Source: Aurantiochytrium sp. KH105
Lineage: Eukaryota; Sar; Bigyra; Thraustochytrida; Thraustochytriidae
Reading direction: 5' to 3'
Assembly (NCBI GenBank): GCA_003116975.1
Contig: BGKB01000009.1
Coordinates: 125,126 to 189,125 of the forward strand
Length of the DNA: 64,000 nt
The position numbers and the translations under genes are program-made. The notes beneath the pieces are model-generated. The model worked only from the letters and a program-made list of their open reading frames with translations. It did no database searches and was not told where the DNA came from. Below, piece after piece: positions 72 through 30,087 of this stretch. How positions within the stretch are numbered: position 1 is the stretch's first letter; every line of letters starts with the position of its first letter.

Positions 72-1315
72 TCCAAAGCCCAAAGCGAGCTGTTCTTGCC
101 CAAGCCTTTCCCGAGCCCAACGGCGCCATCTGGGCCGATCTTGTTCCACACAAGGCTGTGCATGATGATTGAGGTGTGGCATGGCATTCATTGCAATCAT
201 TGCATTCATTGATGAGCGCGAAATGACCGTCAGTGTCCACCCTCATGTCGCCATCGAAGTCGCGCAGTCCCGCCTTTCTGCTCTCCGCCACGAACGCCCA
301 CCTGCCTTCCTTCACGCAGAAATCCACGCATGACGCCTTCTTGCCTCCAATCAAACGCAGGACAACACAAGGAACCAACTTACTTCAAAGACTTAAGCGA
401 GCTGTTGTTGCCCAAGCCTTTCCCGAGCCGAACGGCGCCCGAGTCGCCGATGCCATTGGCAGCAAGGCTGTGCATGATGATTGAGGTGTGGCACGGCATT
501 CATTGCATTCATTGCGAAATGGCTGTTAGTGTCCACCCTCATGTTGCCGTCACCGTCGTCTTGGTGCAGTCCCACCTTTCTGCTCTCCGCCACGGACGCT
601 CACCTGCCTTCCTTCACGCAGAAATCCACGCATACCGCCTTCTTGCCTCCAATCAAACGCAGGACAACACAACCGAACCAACTTACTTCAAAGACATAAG
701 CGAGCTGTTCTTGCCCAAGCCTTTCCCGAGCCGAACGGCGCCCGAGTCGCCGATGCCATTGACAGCAAGGCTGTGCATGAGATGATTGAGGTGTGGCACG
801 GCGTTCATTGCATTCATTGATGAGCGCGAAATGACTGTCAGTGTCCACCCTCATGTCGCCGTCGCCGTCGTCTTGGCCCAGTCCCGCCTCTCTGCTGTCC
901 GCCACAAACGCCCACCTGCCTTCCTGAACGCAGAAATCCACGCATGCCGCCTTCTTGCCTCCAGTCCAAAGTCTTGCCTCCAATCAAACGCAGGACAACA
1001 CAACCGAACCAACTTACTTCAGTTCCTTAAGCGAGCTGTTCTTGCTCATGCCTTCTCCGAGCCCAATGGCGCCCGAGTCGCCGATGCCATTACCAGCAAG
1101 ACTGTGCATGATGATTGTGGTGTGGCATGGCATTCATTGCAATCAGTGATGAGCGCGAAATAGCTGTCAGTGTTCACTCTCATGTCGCTGTCGCCATCGT
1201 CTTGGCGCAGTCCCGCCCTTCTGCTCTCTATCACGAAGGCCTACCTGCCTTCCTTCACGCAGAAAGACATGCATGTTGCCTCGTTGACCATTGTGAAGAT
1301 ACGATCAGAACTTAC
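72..1315 (-). repeat. Four tandem exon-plus-intron units of the LRR gene
   Basis: Four consecutive units of about 300-330 bases (starting near 72, 384, 687 and 1018) repeat both the 84-nt LRR exon and the intron beside it. Intron stretches such as GAGGTGTGGCATGGCATTCA and CCTGCCTTCCTTCACGCAG recur almost unchanged. Because non-coding parts are as alike as exons, the copies look recent. Units further right (1316-2341) keep exon length and phase but have diverged introns. Confidence 0.8.
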
Positions 1316-2922
1316 CTGAGAATTTGCAGCGTCGTGTTCGTGGAGAGCAAGCCTGCGATTACTTTGCCGCCAACATCGCTGATGCCGTTGAAGCTGAGAC
1401 TGTGTGTTGTCAGTGAAAACAACTTAAGATGTCAGTCTTGTAATTTTGATATCTGGCGCAGGAGTGTCGTCACAAGTCCTCTGCAACTATCTCAAGCCGT
1501 CAACTTACTCCAAGGACGTGAGTATTGTATTCTCGCTCAGAGCATCGACGAGCGCCAATACCCCATCGTCTCCAATGTTATTGCTCTGCTCGTTCCACTC
1601 GCTTCCAAGACTGTTGACGTCGTAACCATGAACGAGCCATGTAAGCCTTCGATTCATCGTTTCCAAGAGTCCCTCTCTTTGCTTGATGATACCTTGACAT
1701 CGAAAATATGGCACCAGAGCTGAGTGCTCGACCAAGGGATCCTGGCGATGATTGCTCGAGTCCTTTCTTTTGTTACTACGACAGATCAATGCTCAACTTA
1801 CTTGAGCGAGCAGAGCGTGACATTCACGCTCAATACGTAAGAAAAAGCAACCGCGCCATCGACACCAATGCTGTTGCATTTGAGACTGCATCAATTGAAA
1901 GTATGTGGGTGTCAGTCTCTTGCGTGTTATATAACGGCGTCGTTACGACGCTAATATTCAACTGCCTTAACCAGAGTCTCTCCTGTTGGTACTGTACCCA
2001 AATCAACTCCGCGACAGGCTTTGACTTACGAAAGCGTGGAAAGCGAGGAGTTCTGGTGCAGGGCTTCGGCCAGAGCAACGCCGCCCTCTCCATGAATCCC
2101 ATTCTTTTCGAGACTTGAGTGGTAGAGACAAGCACATAAAGTCAGTGTCCTCCTGGCATTGTGCAACAATGCATTTGATTTCGACCACTTTGGTTATCGC
2201 TTCCGCAAATGTGTGCGCGCTTTCATCGAACAAAATCCCGCTCAAACGCAAACTTACTTCAACGAAACGAGTGAGGTGTTCGTATCAAGCTCTTCTCCCA
2301 GCGCTATGGTTCCTTCGTCGCCGACTTCACGATCGGTAAGACTGTGCATAATTTTGAAAATTATGTCAATAGGTCGGATCGCATGAAGGTCATTCTTCCT
2401 TGCGAGAGGGCTTTCAACGTACTCGATCGTTTTAACGCCGTTTCGCATCAGTTCGATCGCCTTCTCGACCGCACGTTGCCCGCTGAGACCTTCCATGAGG
2501 CCTTTTTCCTCGACGTCTTCTTTCTCGGGCGACTCCTCCTCGCTCCCGCCACTGGCACGATCTTCGTCGTCGTTGTCCTCTTCTTCATGCCCGCCTTCAC
2601 CGCGATCGCCGCCGCCGCCGCCATGATTATCGTAATAATTTCCGTCCTCATCTTCCTCATCGTCATCGCTCTCTCTTTTATCTCTCCCTCTGTACGCGTC
2701 ATCGGCCTTGCTTCCGTTGTACGTCTCGTCCGCTTCTTCGTCCCCGTGAATGTCAAGATGCTCATCGACGATCTCGTTGACGTCTTCGTCATTGGCCGAA
2801 AGGTAACCGAGGGACGCGTCATCTTGATTGGCCGCATCATGCGCGTGAGAAGGCGCATGGTCATCACCCTGGGCCCGAGGCGCCCGCTTCATGCGGGCAG
2901 TGAGCTTCTTGACGGTATTCAT
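72..2922 (-). CDS. Multi-exon leucine-rich-repeat protein (3' end outside window)
   Basis: Minus-strand gene read from ATG at 2922. Proposed exons: 2423-2922, 2258-2341, 2030-2113, 1802-1885, 1509-1610, 1316-1399, 1018-1101, 687-770, 384-467 and 72-155, continuing past the left edge. Exon 1 encodes a basic start and a long Asp/Glu-rich stretch with Gly runs, then enters the first repeat at MRNGVKTI. Every later exon is 84 nt (one is 102) and encodes one 28-residue ribonuclease-inhibitor-type LRR, for example NLAANGIGDSGAVRLG. Each donor is GTAAGT (GTACGT for exon 1), each acceptor ends in AG, and all junctions are phase 2, so the split codon usually becomes the Asn opening the next repeat. 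Introns are 81-247 bases. Such LRRs usually bind proteins; the partner is unknown. The exon model rests on the repeated splice signals and reading frame, not on transcripts. The 102-nt exon is the least certain boundary. Confidence 0.8.
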
Positions 2923-5900
2923 CTTCTCGTCTTGAGTACCCGTGCACACGCTTGTCCTTTCTCCCCCCTCTCTCTCAGTAATCGCTCTCCCTTTTTGCAC
3001 CGCGCTGCGATCGCTCGTGCCGCCGCGTCGCTCCTCCTTCCCCCCTTCCCCCCGCGCGCTACGCCCCCGCTCCGCTCGCTGCTGCCTCCGCTGCGCACGT
3101 GCTCCTGGACGCTCGTGTTCGCTTCGGTCGCCTGTCTCGCTTCGTTTGCGCTCTGCTGCCGGCCGACTACTGCACAATACTACTTCGCCGTGCACCTTCC
3201 TTCTCGCCTTGCGTCCCTACTCGCACCTACACTCGCGCAGCACACTCGCGCAGCATGCGATGCCTTGCTACTACGTTACCGCGAGAGGTGCCTTTCCCCC
3301 CCTTCTTCATCGCGTGCGCCGCGACGGTCCTGCCGCACGCAGCCGCCTGCGCGCGACTCCCGCGCGCGTGCGACCCTGGTCTCTTCGCAACTCTTCGCGC
3401 CTCTTCTGCACGCGCTGCGAGGAGAAGCGGCGAGGGCGGTCCGGCCGTCGCAGTCTTCAAGTCGAGGTGGCCGGCTCATTCAAGCGCAACCGACGCTGCT
3501 GTCGCAAAGGAATGACACGCGAGGGCTCAAACGGGATGTGCGTGGCAGAGGCAGCAGAAGGCGCATGCCCAGACCAGGCGGAGATGCAAAGGGCCACGGA
3601 CGGAAGTCGGTGGCGGGCGACATGCTTGGTGGACCTTGTGCTCCGTTGTTGAAGCACGCAAGCGGTCCACGACGACTTCTGCCTCCGCACCCATGTCAAG
3701 ATCAAGTAGCTTCTTGGCTCAACTTGGTTCCACCAGCGGAGAGATTGTACAATCACATTTTTAAAATCAGGATAATGTCTCGCACCCGGCGATGGGCAAG
3801 ACGGGCATTGTTAATGGTTGAGCCTGCAAGATCACCATAAGCGGATTGGATTGGGCAGGTTCAGGTTGATGACGTTCCTTCTATTATTGGAAGACCAGAA
3901 GGTTGCGTTTGTGAGTCAGCGCATAGTTTGTGTCTCTTTGTGTTTGCTCAGAATACTGTGAAATACGCAACCAAATGACCTTTGTCTTGTCTGCGGCGCG
4001 GTTCGTCTCAGAAAATGCGGATGCGACGTGCGAAAAATGCTCGTCCAAAGTCACATGAGGCATACGAATTCTAACTCTGAGTATGTACACCTGTGGTCGA
4101 GCGGCTGCGTGAACGTTGTAACGACTAAGTACACGTGAGAAAAATACCGAGGCAGGCGTCATGCTCGTCAGGTCATCATCAACAACAACGGAAAAAAGGT
4201 CGACACAAGCCATAAAGATGACCTTCCTCTTGGCCGTCACGTCCTGAACCGACTGACTTTCGCTTTGCTTGTACAGGGAGTAACACTGAGGTTGGTGGGT
4301 TCAAGGCCATAGCTAGGCCCAGCTCATAAGTAGTTGTTCATCGATATTCATCGTTATGGTCATTGAGTCGTCTGCACGCAACGGTGGATCTCTTCAAGCT
4401 CATGAAGACCAACTACGATAATCTCGAAGCTGCTCTCGCAGATGCGATTGGCACGCCCGATAATCTTGAGAATGCTCTTCCACCTGCTGCACCCACCAGC
4501 GTTCTCGATACCTTAAGGGCCTCTACTTCCACTTCTTCATTTGGATTAATTCCACAATCAGCGACCCCGACTGTCAACGATTCTGCTCGTGATGCGCGGA
4601 AAGCTCAAGGTTAGCAACAGCAACAACAGCAAGAGGTCAATGTTGTCGTGCAGGAAGTCCTGCACAGGCTTCCAGGAAATACAGTGCAAACCGTCGGAGC
4701 TATCACGTGCGGAATTCGTGGGAGCTCAGCTTAATGTCACAAGAGGATCTCATGCCGCTCATCATGCGCTGTCAAGCTCTACAAGTCCTTCAATCAGGAC
4801 CCTGACGAGACATAGTAGTTGTCGCTGTGCGCGGCAGGCACAAGATCAAGCGCACCTAGAAGAAAAGTCCCCTAAATGTCTTTGCAGCAATGATGAAAGA
4901 TAGTGTACACATCTTTCATCGATTTCACAGTCAGGTAGGCCTATTGGTATACAATCTAACGGCCGTGGCCGCGCCGGCGATGCCATTGAGGGGGTTGCGA
5001 CTACGCCACAGGTAGCGCCGAGGAGGTCCTCTTGCGCGAAAGAAATGTGGAGAGACGCAAAGACGGGCGACGGAGCTCGTGCGTGCTGAGCTGCGACTTG
5101 AAGTCAGCGTTGATCGTCGTAGACTGCAACAGCGCACAGAGGAACTCGCGAACGAAGTCGTCGCGAGAAGAGACTGCGTATGAGTGCTGGCAAAGCATGG
5201 CCTCTTTGCCAAGGTCGTAGGCAGAAAAAGCAGAGAGAGCGTCGCGACCCTGCGAAGACGCATTGATCTCGAGCGCGACGCTCGCGTCCTTGAGCCCGCA
5301 TCGCCTGAGGCTCTCGATGTGAACCGACGTGCGGCCTGAAGGCGGCGCCTGTCCTTGATGACATCGTGGAAATGCCGTCTCTGAGAGTGCGGGCCATTTT
5401 GCATGCGGTGACTCAGTTTCGATCGAAAGGGGCGGTCCAACCACCACCACTCAACCTGGCTGGCAAGCTGTAGCCAGCAACCAACTGAAACTGACTGGAG
5501 AATGCCAGACAGCCAGCGAGTCAAACCGGCTGCGGACCCTATCCGTCAGAATGGCTCTTGGGAGCCGGCAAGAAGGTCGAACGTTTGCATTTGCTTGCAT
5601 GCAGCATGTCTGCGTTGAAAGGGGAGTCTAGGTAAGCCTGGACGAAACCTCGCAACCTCCAGACTATATTCGCGACAACATAGCCTTCTTAAGTATCCCC
5701 ATGTTCAGATCCTGCAAATACTTTCTCTGTGCGGTCTGCGCAAGCCCGGTGATCGTCGAGGCAAAATTGAAGCACCGCACTTCCAGATGGCCTTACTGCC
5801 ACACAAATCTTAAGTTCGAAAACGCTGTTCTTCACTTAGACAAGCTCACCAACTCCGTTCGCCAGCTTCACGCTTTCATCGAGCAAATTTTGTGCATCCT

Positions 5901-6483
5901 GTTAAAGTTTGACCTATGGCCTACTTAGTGGACATGCCTCGATCTGTGCGACGCGACGCGATAGGCGTTTGCTTCTGGTCTAGACATATGCGGGGACCCT
6001 GAGAACCAATGCCCATAAAGTTTCCTCTCTCAGCAGAAGCGATTACTTTTCAGCTTTTCTCTTCGGAACGATCACTTACAGTTCTTGAATTTGTAGTAGA
6101 AACGCCCGAGGAACATGGCGCTGCGTAGGGCTCGGCTGGGAAAGAGATAAGATTTGAGAAATGCCCCCACCTGCTATCGTAGCGATGTCGCATTTACTGT
6201 TTATTAGGTGATACTTCGTCCATGCAGGCACTGCCTGTGTGTGCCACATGCGCAGACCGAGTCCACTTTCAAGCAAACAAAATCCCCACTGTGAATGACT
6301 ATCTTCGTTTGTTTTTCTTCCTTTTGGGTTGAAACCAAAAAGAAAACGCGCAAACAGAGCAAACCAAAGCAAATAAATCACAAATTTCTAACGATGCAGG
6401 CTACTGCTTCCTAGTACGGTCTTGTGCAAGAGGTCAAGTCCTTGCACACATGAGAGCGACTGACGCAATGCAAAAGCAGTCCA
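2923..6483. other. Gene-poor interval with no firm gene
   Basis: About 3.5 kb without a gene I can defend. 2923-3500 is C/T-rich on the plus strand and is the probable 5' region of the LRR gene. Beyond that the base composition is more AT-rich than elsewhere. A minus-strand open frame at 5001-5450 (149 codons) has a protein-like mixed composition between 5010 and 5340 but no recognisable domain and no clear start. A plus-strand frame at 5701-5928 (75 codons) is likewise unassignable. A possible broken gene at 4363-4733 is listed separately. Confidence 0.5.
4363..4733 (+). pseudogene. Possible decayed coding fragment
   Basis: An open frame of 83 codons contains a plausible helical stretch (LFKLMKTNYDNLEAALADAI) followed by a Pro/Ser/Thr-rich segment, then a TAG near 4612. 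The same frame continues after the stop with a Gln run and a further protein-like segment (VVVQEVLHRLPGNTVQTVGA) to a second stop near 4733. This looks like a gene remnant with an in-frame stop, or an exon whose splicing I cannot see. No family was recognised, and chance open reading is possible. Confidence 0.25.
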
Positions 6484-26477: not shown

Positions 26478-27548
26478 TCAGAGCTTCGTTTGGGCGCCGC
26501 GCACGCGATGAAGAAGGTCTTCTCCAGTGAAGTGAGGTGATCCGTTGCCTTCGGCGGCCTTGACGAGGGCAATGAGTTCAGAGTTAACCTTGGGCTCATC
26601 GATTCCGTGAGCTTTGGCAACGCGGGTAATCTCGCCGTTGAGAAGGTCGATCTCGGTAAGACGACCACGCTCGAGGTCTTGCAGCATGCTTGTCTTTGCC
26701 GTGGGATTGATCTTGAGAATGTAAGGAAAAACAAACTTGAAGACGAGTTGCGGCAAGGCGAAAATGACAGGCAGCAGACGAATGTAGCCGCCCTTGGATG
26801 GGCTCTGCACAGAAATTCCAGCCTTGTCAAAGACCGCGAGCGCTTCGTTCATGCTGAGGACAGCGACCTTGCGGAATTCAGGATTCATGAGTGTCTCAAG
26901 AGTCGGCACACCTGCAAGAGCGTTGATGGCGTTGCTCATGTTCAGGAGAAGCTTGCCGTACTGACGCGGAGTGATATCTTCCTCAACCTCGACTTCAACG
27001 CCGCCTCGCGCGCACATGCGAGCAAAAAGTGCGGCATGGGGACCATCCTGCAAGAAGGTTTCACCTGTAGAAGTCTGCGTAAATGTGGCGTCGTTCCAAA
27101 TAATGTTGAAGACGAGCATACCTGCGAGCACCGAGACGCCGTCGAGAGGGATGTTGTCACGAAGGGTTTGCGCATTGCAGACTCCGTTTTGAAGGGAGAC
27201 CAGGGTCCTGGGCTTGGGGTTTTCGCGGAGGATAACGGCGAGTTCCCGGGCAACGGGCTCGGTCTGACCGCCCTTGACCGCAACGATGATAATGTCACAG
27301 TCGGAAAGCTCCTCCATCTTATCCGTGACGACGAGGTCTTTGCCCACGCGCAGCACATTCGTCTCTCCGTGCACCGTGGCCGTCGTGAGCGTGCCGCCGG
27401 CCTCTTCGACTGCCTTGAGCAGCGAGCTGCGGCCCACGAGCGTGACCTTGAGGTCCTCGACCGCTCCCTCGCCCTCATTGCCCGCCAGGATCCTGCCTCC
27501 AAAGAAGGCTCCCACCGCGCCTGCCCCGAGCACGCCCACGTGCACCAT
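26478..27548 (-). CDS. 2-dehydropantoate 2-reductase-like protein, copy 1
   Basis: A 356-residue ApbA/PanE-family protein. It opens with a Rossmann fold (VGVLGAGAVGAFFGG, residues 3-17) for NADPH, then DIIIVAVKGGQTEPV and LVSLQNGVCNA. The C-terminal helical domain contains QYGKLLLNMSNAINALAG, matching the catalytic-Lys region of PanE, and TSMLQDLERGRLTEIDLLNG, the substrate-side Glu region. The family reduces ketopantoate to pantoate in pantothenate/CoA synthesis, though many eukaryotic members are unassigned 2-oxoacid reductases. The upstream extension to 27719 has no ATG-supported or conserved sequence. The ATG at 27548 follows an AGCAG and AAGC repeat leader. It is paralogous to the next gene upstream on the same strand, and both keep the catalytic landmarks. 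Confidence 0.85.
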   Translation of the reverse strand: MVHVGVLGAGAVGAFFGGRILAGNEGEGAVEDLKVTLVGRSSLLKAVEEAGGTLTTATVHGETNVLRVGKDLVVTDKMEELSDCDIIIVAVKGGQTEPVARELAVILRENPKPRTLVSLQNGVCNAQTLRDNIPLDGVSVLAGMLVFNIIWNDATFTQTSTGETFLQDGPHAALFARMCARGGVEVEVEEDITPRQYGKLLLNMSNAINALAGVPTLETLMNPEFRKVAVLSMNEALAVFDKAGISVQSPSKGGYIRLLPVIFALPQLVFKFVFPYILKINPTAKTSMLQDLERGRLTEIDLLNGEITRVAKAHGIDEPKVNSELIALVKAAEGNGSPHFTGEDLLHRVRGAQTKL

Positions 27549-28402
27549 TTTGCTCGCTTGCTTGCTTGCTTCTGCTCTGCTCTGCTCTTGTGGTCTGCTG
27601 TGCTCGCGCTTGTTTGCTTCGCTCGCTATCTCGGGGATCGTTGCGGGATTGCTCTGCTCGCGGATCTTGATGACGCACCGGTGACGCTTCTCGGAGGGGG
27701 GGGGCGTGTCATTCACCATGGCAACGTGGTCACCCTTGCCTGCGCCATGAGAAAAAGTGCAACAATCTCATCCGAGTTCATCCGTCCCGCGCCGGGCTCC
27801 AGCCAGGTCCGCGCCGCGGCGGCGTCGCCTGGCTGCACGGGTGGCCGAGGTCGGCCGCCGGGTGGGTGGAGCGGAGTGGGGAGGAGCGGAGCGGGGCGCC
27901 AGCAGCAGCAGCAGCACGGTCGGCGGCCGGGGCCGTCGAACGGGCCGTGGCGACGCCCGGTTCGTCGCAAGCGGCTCCGAACAAGCATTTTGTGGCGCAG
28001 CAGCAGAGCAGGGCCAGACAGACTTTACCGCGAATGCGAGCGCGCGCAATGTGGGCGTTCGCTCGGCCCGGTTGTGAGGCCGTGCGGAAAAGAAGGTCAC
28101 GCTGCAATAGCTGCAGCTGCAGCAGCTGCTGCCATCGCAAGCAAGGACCGTGTGAGAGAAGTCGAGAATGTTTTGTGACAAGAATCTTGAAGTGTAGACA
28201 TGCGAGCAAGCAAGGAAGCAAATGCGAGAGCAACAAGAGAGGAGGGCCCATCGTTTTGTGGCCGGTCACAACGGCGGCTCCACCCATATGAGGGGCTGCA
28301 AGTGTCCCTTTTTCCGGCCGCTTCTCTTGTCGCTACTGCAGCTGCCGCTGCTGGTGACAGCAGCGAAAAGAAAAAAACGAGATGATGGGAAGTGAAATAA
28401 AA
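27549..28402. other. Spacer between the two reductase genes
   Basis: 854 bases. Next to copy 1 it holds AAGC and AGAGC repeats (about 27550-27600), then GC-rich low-complexity DNA with a CAGCAGCAG run near 27900-27915 (GCTG on the minus strand) and GCAGCTGCAG near 28110-28130. Long open frames on both strands have low-complexity translations and were not accepted. Confidence 0.5.
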
Positions 28403-29485
28403 TCAGTGCTTAGCTTTTGGGGCCGGAGAGAGAAGCGAGAGTAATTGCTCACCGTCCATTTTGGGAGATCCGCGGGACTCAGCCTCCTTGACGAGACGGA
28501 CGAGCGTGGCGTTGACAAAAGGCTCCTCGAGGTTGTGCTCCTTGGCGACGCGGACGATTTCGCCATTGAGAAGGTCGATTTCAGTCGTGCGCCCTCTCTC
28601 GAGGTCTTGGAGCATGCTCGTCTTTGCCTTGGGATGGATTTTAATGACAAATGGCATGACGATGCGGAAAAGGCAGTCGGGAAGACTAAAGAGGCGCGGA
28701 AGCATGTAAATGGATGACTTGTTGGGGCTCTTGATTGGGATTCCTGCGCGCGAAAGGACGTCAATGGCTTCATAGATGCTGAGCGCAATCGACCTGCGCA
28801 GGCCCGGATCCTTGAAGCAGTCAAGAATGGGAATACCCGCAAGGGCATTAACGGCATTGTTCAGATTGATGAGCAACTTGCCATACTGCAGCGCGGTGAT
28901 GTCCGGCTGTACGACGACGGGAATGCCTCCGCGCGTGGAGAGGCGCCCAAAGAGCGATGCCTGGGGCCCATCCTGAACAACGATATCGCCCGAAGTCGTC
29001 TGCGAAAAGTCGGCGCCCGCCCAGACGACGTTGAAGACGACGCTACCGGCGAGGACGGCGACCTTTTCGTCGTTGATGATCTCGCGCAGGATACGCGCAT
29101 TGGTCACGCCATTTTGCAAAGAGATGATCGTGCGTTGGGGGCCGGCTGCGCCAGGCGAGGCGGCAAAGAGATCGCGGAGCTGCTTGGCCACGCCCTCCGT
29201 GTGCGACGCTTTGACGGCGACCAGAATGATCTCTGCGTCCGCGAGCGCGCCAACGTCCTTGGTGACGACAAAATGATCGTCTTGCACGTGGTCGGCGCGC
29301 TCGCCCGCAATGGTGTGCGTGACCAGTACACCCCCGTTCGCCTCGACGGCGTCCAGCAGCGACTCGCGCCCCACCAGCGTCACCTTCAGGTCCGATACAG
29401 CCCCTTCGCCCACGTTCCCGGCGAGCAGCCGCGCGCCCACGTAGGCGCCCACCGCGCCGGCGCCCAGCACCCCGACGTGCGGCAT
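28403..29485 (-). CDS. 2-dehydropantoate 2-reductase-like protein, copy 2
   Basis: A 360-residue paralogue of the gene at 26478-27548, same strand. It has the same architecture: VGVLGAGAVGAYVGARLLAG Rossmann loop, EIILVAVKASHTEGV, IISLQNGVTNARIL, QYGKLLINLNNAVNALAG, then KTSMLQDLERGRTTEIDLL. Spacing between these motifs is nearly the same in the two copies, so they are a tandem duplication that has diverged substantially. Differences cluster between the Rossmann core and the helical domain and at the C-terminus. One copy may have taken a new 2-oxoacid substrate. The ATG at 29485 is used; the frame continues upstream as Arg-rich low-complexity text. The sense leader contains several AGAGC pentanucleotide repeats. 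Confidence 0.85.
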   Translation of the reverse strand: MPHVGVLGAGAVGAYVGARLLAGNVGEGAVSDLKVTLVGRESLLDAVEANGGVLVTHTIAGERADHVQDDHFVVTKDVGALADAEIILVAVKASHTEGVAKQLRDLFAASPGAAGPQRTIISLQNGVTNARILREIINDEKVAVLAGSVVFNVVWAGADFSQTTSGDIVVQDGPQASLFGRLSTRGGIPVVVQPDITALQYGKLLINLNNAVNALAGIPILDCFKDPGLRRSIALSIYEAIDVLSRAGIPIKSPNKSSIYMLPRLFSLPDCLFRIVMPFVIKIHPKAKTSMLQDLERGRTTEIDLLNGEIVRVAKEHNLEEPFVNATLVRLVKEAESRGSPKMDGEQLLSLLSPAPKAKH

Positions 29486-30087
29486 CTTCTCCGCTGCAGT
29501 CCCAGGCCAGCCGGCCGTCCCGCCCTTCCCTGCTCTCTGCTCTGCTCTGCTCTGCTCCGCTCCGAGTCCGCTCCGCTCGATCCCGTTCTGCAGCTGCACG
29601 TGGCCGCGGACGGCGGGTTTAGGATCGCCTTCTGCGGCCCTTGCGGCGCTTCGTTTTCTCGTCTCCTCTCGTCTCCTCTTCGACGCCCCCCTGCTTGGTC
29701 CGTCCCTCCTCACTCTTCGTCCGGCCGCCGCACCTTTGCACGCGCCGCGACCACGGTCCAGCCTAACCGACCTGCGCCCGCGCCTCGACGAGGGTCCAGC
29801 CTGACCAACCTGGCCTTCCCTCCCTCCCTCCCGACCCGGACGAGCGAGCCCACGCAGCGGCAGCCGCACGCAGCAGCAGCAGCAGCTGCAGAAGACAGTC
29901 GAGCGAACGGCCGCGGCCGGCCTCCAAGCCGGGCTCGCTCGCGTACCTGTCGAAGGTCGAGGCGCCGCGGCAGGCGTCGAAGCGCACCGTGCGCTGCGGA
30001 GAGCCGAGCGCTCTCGGGTTTGGGGCGATCGAGTACTAGGTTACTCGCGATGCAGTCTGGGATAAACAGGGGAGAGTGGCCGGCAGG
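29486..30087. promoter_or_regulatory. Divergent promoter region, reductase 2 / pseudo-enolase
   Basis: About 600 GC-rich bases between diverging ATGs. It has CTCTG pentanucleotide repeats at 29535-29560 (AGAGC in the sense of the reductase) and a short CAGCAG run near 29875. No gene was recognised. Confidence 0.5.

Follow-up and report, generated by a model that had tools for sequence, protein, structure and literature searches.

Arrays of single-repeat LRR exons joined to kinase and TIR domains in a candidate receptor gene family of Aurantiochytrium sp. KH105

Exon structure of the window gene

We analyzed a stretch of 64,000 nucleotides from Aurantiochytrium sp. KH105 (the window), which corresponds to positions 125126-189125 of contig C9 (BGKB01000009.1) in an assembly of 76 Mb and 367 contigs (GCA_003116975.1). 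An earlier note on this DNA had described nine exons on the minus strand, each encoding one leucine-rich repeat (LRR) and all bordered by GTAAGT donors and AG acceptors in the same phase. These exons were found where the note had put them, at 72-2341. Eight are 84 nt long and one is 102 nt long, and the GTAAGT donor, the AG acceptor and phase 2 are present in all nine. GTAAGT occurs 16 times in the window, nine of these being the donors of the LRR exons, and the only stretches of AG, 84 nt and GTAAGT in the whole window are the eight 84-nt exons, all of which are open.

The first five repeats form the head of the gene. LRR1 (LTDREVGDEGTIALGEELDTNTSLVSL) is encoded by exon 2 at 2258-2341, LRR2 by exon 3 at 2030-2113, which has a counterpart exon in other heads, LRR3 by exon 4 at 1802-1885 and LRR5 by exon 6 at 1316-1399. 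The 102-nt exon, exon 5 at 1610-1509, encodes LRR4 and carries the six additional residues mentioned in the note; nine other heads have a 102-nt exon in the corresponding position. The head is followed by variable LRR cassettes of 84 nt, which show the same splice borders and also fit the cassette pattern of the genome search described below: exon 7 at 1018-1101, exon 8 at 687-770, exon 9 at 384-467 and exon 10 at 72-155, from where the gene goes on to the left of the window. The four cassette introns (1315-1102, 1017-771, 686-468 and 383-156, spanning 156-1315 together with exons 7-9) share 80-84% mutual identity over their aligned parts in blastn comparisons.

A further coding exon, absent from the earlier note, precedes the nine. 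Exon 1 (2922-2423, minus strand, 500 nt) starts with the ATG at 2922, encodes an acidic low-complexity N-terminus and an LRR N-cap, and ends with GVKTI and two additional bases. It is separated from LRR1 by intron 1 (2342-2422, 81 nt, phase 2). Because this intron is open in the window copy, exon 1 was at first read straight through into LRR1. We dropped that reading in view of the stops or frame changes that interrupt the region in several paralogues and of the common donor: GA/GTACGT (slash at the exon border) is found in 14 of 15 heads, including that of the window gene, with an intron 1 of 81-90 nt, and the fifteenth head has GA/GTGCGT. Splicing out intron 1 restores the LxxLxL strand of LRR1, with GAT as the junction codon.

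Each LRR is one exon with phase-2 borders inside the LxxLxL strand, so duplication, loss or exchange of a unit leaves the frame intact. As the introns interrupt the beta-strand between LxxL and xLxxN, an exon swap also creates new strand combinations. We searched the fetched loci for units by their intron-end motifs alone, with no preset length, and obtained 79 units (one exon counted twice where the window and locus L031 overlap), of which 77 are exactly 84 nt long and open. The remaining two, of 21 and 82 nt, sit on 84-nt exons and arise from offset motif matches. The introns in this search measure 219-289 nt, and 43% of 27-codon frames inside them are open. The window exons and their paralogues thus support the modular phase-2 architecture read in the earlier note.

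The same note had stated that nearly all other genes in the window are intronless. In a sample of 17 other long open reading frames, 11 have Pfam matches, and several carry near-whole domains in a single frame (pyruvate carboxylase, Rft1 and an EF-hand/PH kinase). On the minus strand, the window also contains two adjacent ketopantoate-reductase-like (ApbA) genes at 26478-27719 and 28403-29869, probably a tandem pair.

The gene on contig C9

The nine LRR exons form the head of a gene extending past the left edge of the window, where a gap of N letters of 1.3 kb is located and beyond which the array continues. To follow it, the whole genome was searched with a DNA pattern of the cassette, allowing up to three mismatches, and with the reversed pattern as a control. 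The pattern gave 126 matches and the control none. Among the 100 matches listed of these 126, 48 fall within C9:107242-126216. In total the C9 gene has at least 57 LRR exons, namely the five head LRRs, three cassettes found in the window only, 26 in L031, 22 pattern matches in C9 106851-115499 (the DNA was read for one of them, in L052, and the others were taken from the pattern match) and one terminal exon of 87 nt. The N gap, together with a few intervals of double length, points to some further exons.

The array ends with the 87-nt terminal LRR exon, after which one long open exon encodes a linker, a protein kinase domain, a TIR domain and a conserved tail. Both domains lie in one open stretch and score above the Pfam cut-offs (Pkinase, 1.7e-23; TIR_2, 7.5e-8, with 33.3 bits for a cut-off of 28), and the tail has no Pfam match. 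The gene measures about 24 kb between its start codon and the end of the tail. Extension of the contig to the left, which the earlier note had proposed in order to count the units and find the downstream domain, therefore yielded a kinase followed by a TIR domain.

The head of the window gene matches LRR_6 at 8.5e-39 in the protein from the first exon 1 model. The best PDB match of the LRR part is a ribonuclease inhibitor-like protein (7.4e-33), and the others are ribonuclease inhibitors and NLRPs. Judged by these matches, the repeats belong to the ribonuclease-inhibitor type, a tandem class of 28-29 residues. The C-terminal part is predicted to carry a protein kinase domain with the Lys, HxD and Dx(D/G) motifs: VALK, HGDIKPRN and DLD, which we take to be these motifs, are present together with APE in all nine aligned paralogues. 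In the TIR domain, all eight paralogues compared have the glutamate of (C/S)LAEL (E90 of A1), which would be the catalytic residue of a putative TIR NADase. The TIR domain of this family is far from solved TIR domains by sequence, with a best TIR match at E 0.053. A scan of the head and of the C-terminal part (1001 residues) at E up to 1 found no NACHT, NB-ARC or ROC-COR domain. Two short peptide patterns from the TIR-tail region matched 126 stretches in prokaryote genomes and 20 in viral contigs, none of which was confirmed as a relative.

The gene family

The layout of the window gene, including the conserved head repeats with the 102-nt fourth repeat, recurs on many contigs. A search of the genome for the kinase gave at least 31 matches at at least 27 places, at least 25 of which also have a TIR match in the vicinity; none was found near the kinase matches of C96 and C182, and the kinase copy of C171 is broken by stops. 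The linker gave at least 24 matches. These counts are lower bounds, as scoring covered 112 of 144 kinase candidates and 150 of 290 head candidates. They may also include alleles, since near-equal matches on pairs of contigs suggest both haplotypes or old duplicates. Frame breaks are present in some copies (C225, C116 and C171) and speak against a reading of the family as receptors.

We read 84-nt cassettes at ten kinase-bearing places (C9, C57, C29, C225, C69, C300, C42, C5, C21 and C116). On C215 (L040, 4951-5910), the linker runs into the conserved tail, and both kinase and TIR are missing. Cassette numbers differ between paralogues, with two in C215 and about 50 in C9 as the extremes, which agrees with the proposal of the earlier note that this architecture lets the repeat number vary. 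The variation does not extend to every member, as C5 and C21, near-collinear divergent relatives with 91.4% identity over 9.9 kb, share the same set of ten LRR exons. The repeat numbers are to be read as lower bounds because runs of 1312, 100 and 886 N lie inside or beside the LRR arrays of L031, L034 and L049, and because the contigs C57, C66, C133, C143 and C300 begin or end inside arrays. The position of arrays at contig ends was set aside as a subtelomeric sign, since several contigs stop in the middle of an array, as they would if the assembly had broken at repeats.

On C53, C180 and C16, coordinates indicate that LRR, kinase and TIR matches lie in one frame. The open frames reported there are 1313, 1313 and 1570 amino acids long (the last possibly a minimum). 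This uninterrupted LRR-kinase-TIR order supports the predicted splicing of the cassette genes.

Several further observations concern the surroundings of this family. The genes on C53, C180 and C16 show no sign of introns. L032 (C303) and L035 (C101) are 95.6% identical (about 3 kb upstream of the arrays), and their first exon is unlike that of the window gene, possibly representing a second type of head. A separate array of twelve 84-nt phase-2 LRR exons was found in L047 (C149:16500-26400) at 3237-6231, with a different consensus (KALAGALKENSSLQ) and introns of 169-182 nt. The whole genome contains at least 116 TIR domain matches at E up to 1e-3. Thirty of them, at 29 places, have at least 45% identity, and the rest are mostly distant and often located in open reading frames of ~1200 amino acids. 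This is a large TIR repertoire, possibly with alleles counted twice.

Diversity within the LRR cassettes

The earlier note had proposed that the exon architecture could generate recognition diversity. We examined where the cassettes differ in a set of 78 from 14 contigs, which excludes head exons, exons deviating from 84 nt, the duplicate shared by the window and L031, and the divergent loci C5, C21 and C149. The positions expected to face a ligand (1, 2, 4, 24, 25 and the residue at the exon junction) were chosen by the LRR consensus ahead of the entropy comparison, an order of steps that went unrecorded. The five highest entropies among the 27 positions are those of positions 1, 2, 4, 24 and 25. 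The residue at the junction, for which the concave face was expected as well, is not among the top positions: it is mostly Asn and ranks ninth of 28 with 1.08 bits. Positions 7, 8 and 21, which lie outside the strand, are variable as well.

In 800 random pairs, dN was 0.79 in the five contact codons and 0.114 elsewhere in the exon; the corresponding value for the following introns was 0.112. The dS of the contact codons is raised too (0.56), so that their overall dN/dS is 1.41; within single loci it ranges from 0.96 to 4.66 and is thus not uniformly above 1. The rest of the exon has a dN/dS of 0.65. The bootstrap and per-base values that follow, and below the comparisons of introns within and between loci outside C9 and of variable codons with intron divergence, used the 64 of 78 cassettes whose following intron is 200-300 nt long. 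Relative to that intron, the per-base difference is 4.48-fold in the contact codons (bootstrap range 3.86-5.11) and 1.18-fold in the rest of the exon (1.04-1.35). Per-base diversity in the five contact codons is 0.15-0.71, compared with an intron mean of 0.109, and five intron columns reach 0.48-0.60 and are as variable as contact codons.

Among the head exons, the contact codons of LRR1 evolve fast (dN/dS 2.14) and those of LRR3 are conserved (0.13), while LRR2 and LRR5 have few changes there. The median dN/dS is 0.20 for the kinase (36 pairs from nine copies) and 0.17 for the TIR domain (23 usable of 28 pairs from eight copies). By these ratios the kinase and the TIR domain are conserved and under purifying selection. 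The diversity anticipated by the earlier note is thus apparently placed mainly at the expected ligand face of the LRR cassettes.

Comparison of cassettes between loci

The earlier note had also named recombination of repeat units as a possible source of variation, and the sequences carry signs of it both between units and between loci. Outside C9, cassette introns differ by 0.072 within a locus (66 pairs) and by 0.078 between loci (600 pairs), and 17 of 64 cassettes have their nearest relative in their own locus, compared with 13.2 expected. In the C9 array, cassette difference showed no rise with distance over lags of 1-8. A two-unit block of this array is repeated with nearly unchanged protein (L031, 7515/7853 and 8178/8516).

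In 15 pairs from six loci with both ends known, kinase dS is 0.21-0.98 and the mean difference of cassette introns 4-12% (pairs involving C300 or C29 rest on 1-27 intron comparisons each). For C42 and C57, kinase dS is 0.80 and the introns are on average 6.4% apart (20 comparisons); for C300 and C57, the values are 0.87 and 4.4% (4 comparisons). Since divergence is far greater in the kinases than in the cassette introns, the cassettes were most likely exchanged or homogenised between loci after the genes had separated. Constraint on the introns may explain part of their similarity instead, which we consider a weaker alternative.

One cassette pair, from C101 and C57, has introns identical at 256 of 257 positions, yet the exons differ at 8 of the 21 bases in seven variable codons (1, 2, 4, 7, 8, 24 and 25, picked after the per-base diversity was known) and at 3 of the 63 other bases. 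No kinase was seen for C101. The difference in variable codons is nearly independent of intron divergence (Spearman 0.04). It amounts to 0.34 per base when the introns are less than 2% apart and to about 0.5 beyond 6%. Two close pairs have identical exons, so that, together with the smaller difference of close pairs, recent copying is visible too. Linkage of variable codons is seen inside the blocks 1-2-4, 7-8 and 24-25 (z 4.4-7.3); across block borders there is hardly any, the highest z being 2.5 (codons 1 and 8). Such block linkage fits short conversion tracts.

Discussion

According to our analysis, the window contains the 5′ end of a gene whose product would be a very large receptor, probably located in the cytoplasm. 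The predicted protein would consist of an acidic N-terminus, five conserved head LRRs, a long LRR array, a linker, a kinase, a TIR domain and a conserved tail, if the array is spliced as the exon borders predict. We think it probable that these genes encode recognition receptors diversified by germline exchange of cassettes together with selection. Unequal crossing-over and gene conversion would move and homogenise cassettes within and between loci, as the comparisons above indirectly indicate, and selection would keep the contact codons different. A ligand bound on the concave face could then trigger the kinase, the TIR domain or both. In this case the germline would encode the repertoire, distributed over a family in which kinase and TIR lie together at about 25 places, possibly with alleles among them. 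Such receptors might act as immune, self/non-self or prey sensors.

Diversity could instead come mainly from alternative splicing, with many isoforms produced from each array by skipping of in-phase exons. All examined introns of the window gene are in phase 2 with near-identical donors, so skipping would keep the frame, and splice variants that differ in their LRR sets are known from two Ectocarpus ROCO genes (PMC11378527). However, skipping explains neither the excess of change in contact codons nor the sharing of cassettes between contigs, and germline change would be needed in addition; as the main source, splicing therefore seems to us possible and rather doubtful. Another conceivable source is somatic or programmed rearrangement of the cassettes, in a clonal or VLR-like system. 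The near independence of contact codons from intron divergence, and the linkage inside codon blocks with hardly any between them, are what short templated tracts would leave. Yet ordinary gene conversion and selection over generations yield the same pattern, and the closest cassettes are less different at their variable codons than distant ones, down to the two pairs with identical exons. We regard somatic rearrangement as highly improbable. In its most far-reaching form, this would be a VLR-like system outside animals and plants in which short templated conversion draws on LRR cassettes from all over the genome to rewrite the contact codons, perhaps while a clone grows, and in which kinase and TIR provide the output; we likewise hold this to be very unlikely.

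The arrays might also be functionless, a decaying or selfish tandem repeat that is open by chance. The frame breaks in the C225, C116 and C171 copies and the C215 copy with its missing kinase and TIR would suit such a reading; but 77 of 79 units are exactly 84 nt and open while intron length varies, and the kinase and the TIR domain are under purifying selection, which makes it hardly credible. For receptors diversified by cassette exchange and selection, the most likely use is the recognition of other organisms or viruses. The main rival is a role in mating, fusion, other self/non-self recognition or adhesion in place of defence against infection. The LRR-kinase-TIR order implies signalling and leaves the type of signal unspecified, and fungal allorecognition is served by receptor families that are selected and homogenised. 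On the other hand, the large number of TIR matches in the genome would suit a broad defence repertoire at least as well, and we consider the self/non-self role unlikely. The difference in contact codons exceeds that of the adjacent introns more than fourfold, while the cassettes of different genes stay alike; this makes receptor diversification by cassette exchange, or even somatically, directly testable in simple eukaryotes.

Arrays with one LRR per exon are known from other eukaryotes. Among them are the ROCO genes (LRR-ROC-COR) of brown algae. These genes have 72-bp phase-2 LRR exons and as many as 49 LRRs, and exon shuffling, splice variants and positively selected concave sites are described (PMC11378527). 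The Aurantiochytrium genes resemble them in one LRR per exon, phase 2, signs of exon shuffling, long arrays and variation on the concave face, and differ by 84-nt exons of the ribonuclease-inhibitor type and by a kinase and a TIR domain, with no ROC-COR in the parts scanned. Tetrahymena has thousands of LRR genes with 90-bp exons and an extreme phase-2 bias, for which ectopic recombination was proposed; some are fused to a protein kinase domain (PMC6564038). Arrays of equal-length single-LRR phase-2 exons in a large family are common to both, whereas the genes described here have 84 instead of 90 nt, a kinase plus a TIR domain, and tens of loci instead of thousands of genes.

In vertebrate NLRs such as NOD2, LRR exons measure 84 bp. 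The repeats analyzed here are likewise of the ribonuclease-inhibitor type, with NLRP chains among the PDB matches, and are encoded one per exon. For zebrafish NLRs, one study describes gene conversion and selection in the B30.2 domain (PMC4852459). Unlike vertebrate NLRs, the window gene has no NACHT in the parts scanned and its family carries a kinase and a TIR domain. Plant TIR-NB-LRR proteins and LRR receptor kinases join LRRs to a TIR or a kinase domain and have diversified contact residues. From these the present family differs by the lack of NB-ARC in the parts scanned, by the LRR-kinase-TIR order and by its cassette exons. The lamprey VLR combines LRR modules with variable concave residues in different ways; the variable modules and their differing combinations are shared with our cassettes, and somatic assembly is the lamprey feature. 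A search of open-licence literature, covering titles and the openings of abstracts, recognised no LRR-kinase-TIR cassette family. The window family thus adds a further case of one-LRR-per-exon phase-2 arrays, now tied to kinase and TIR outputs, and differs from the known arrays of this kind in exon length, repeat class and its kinase-TIR output.
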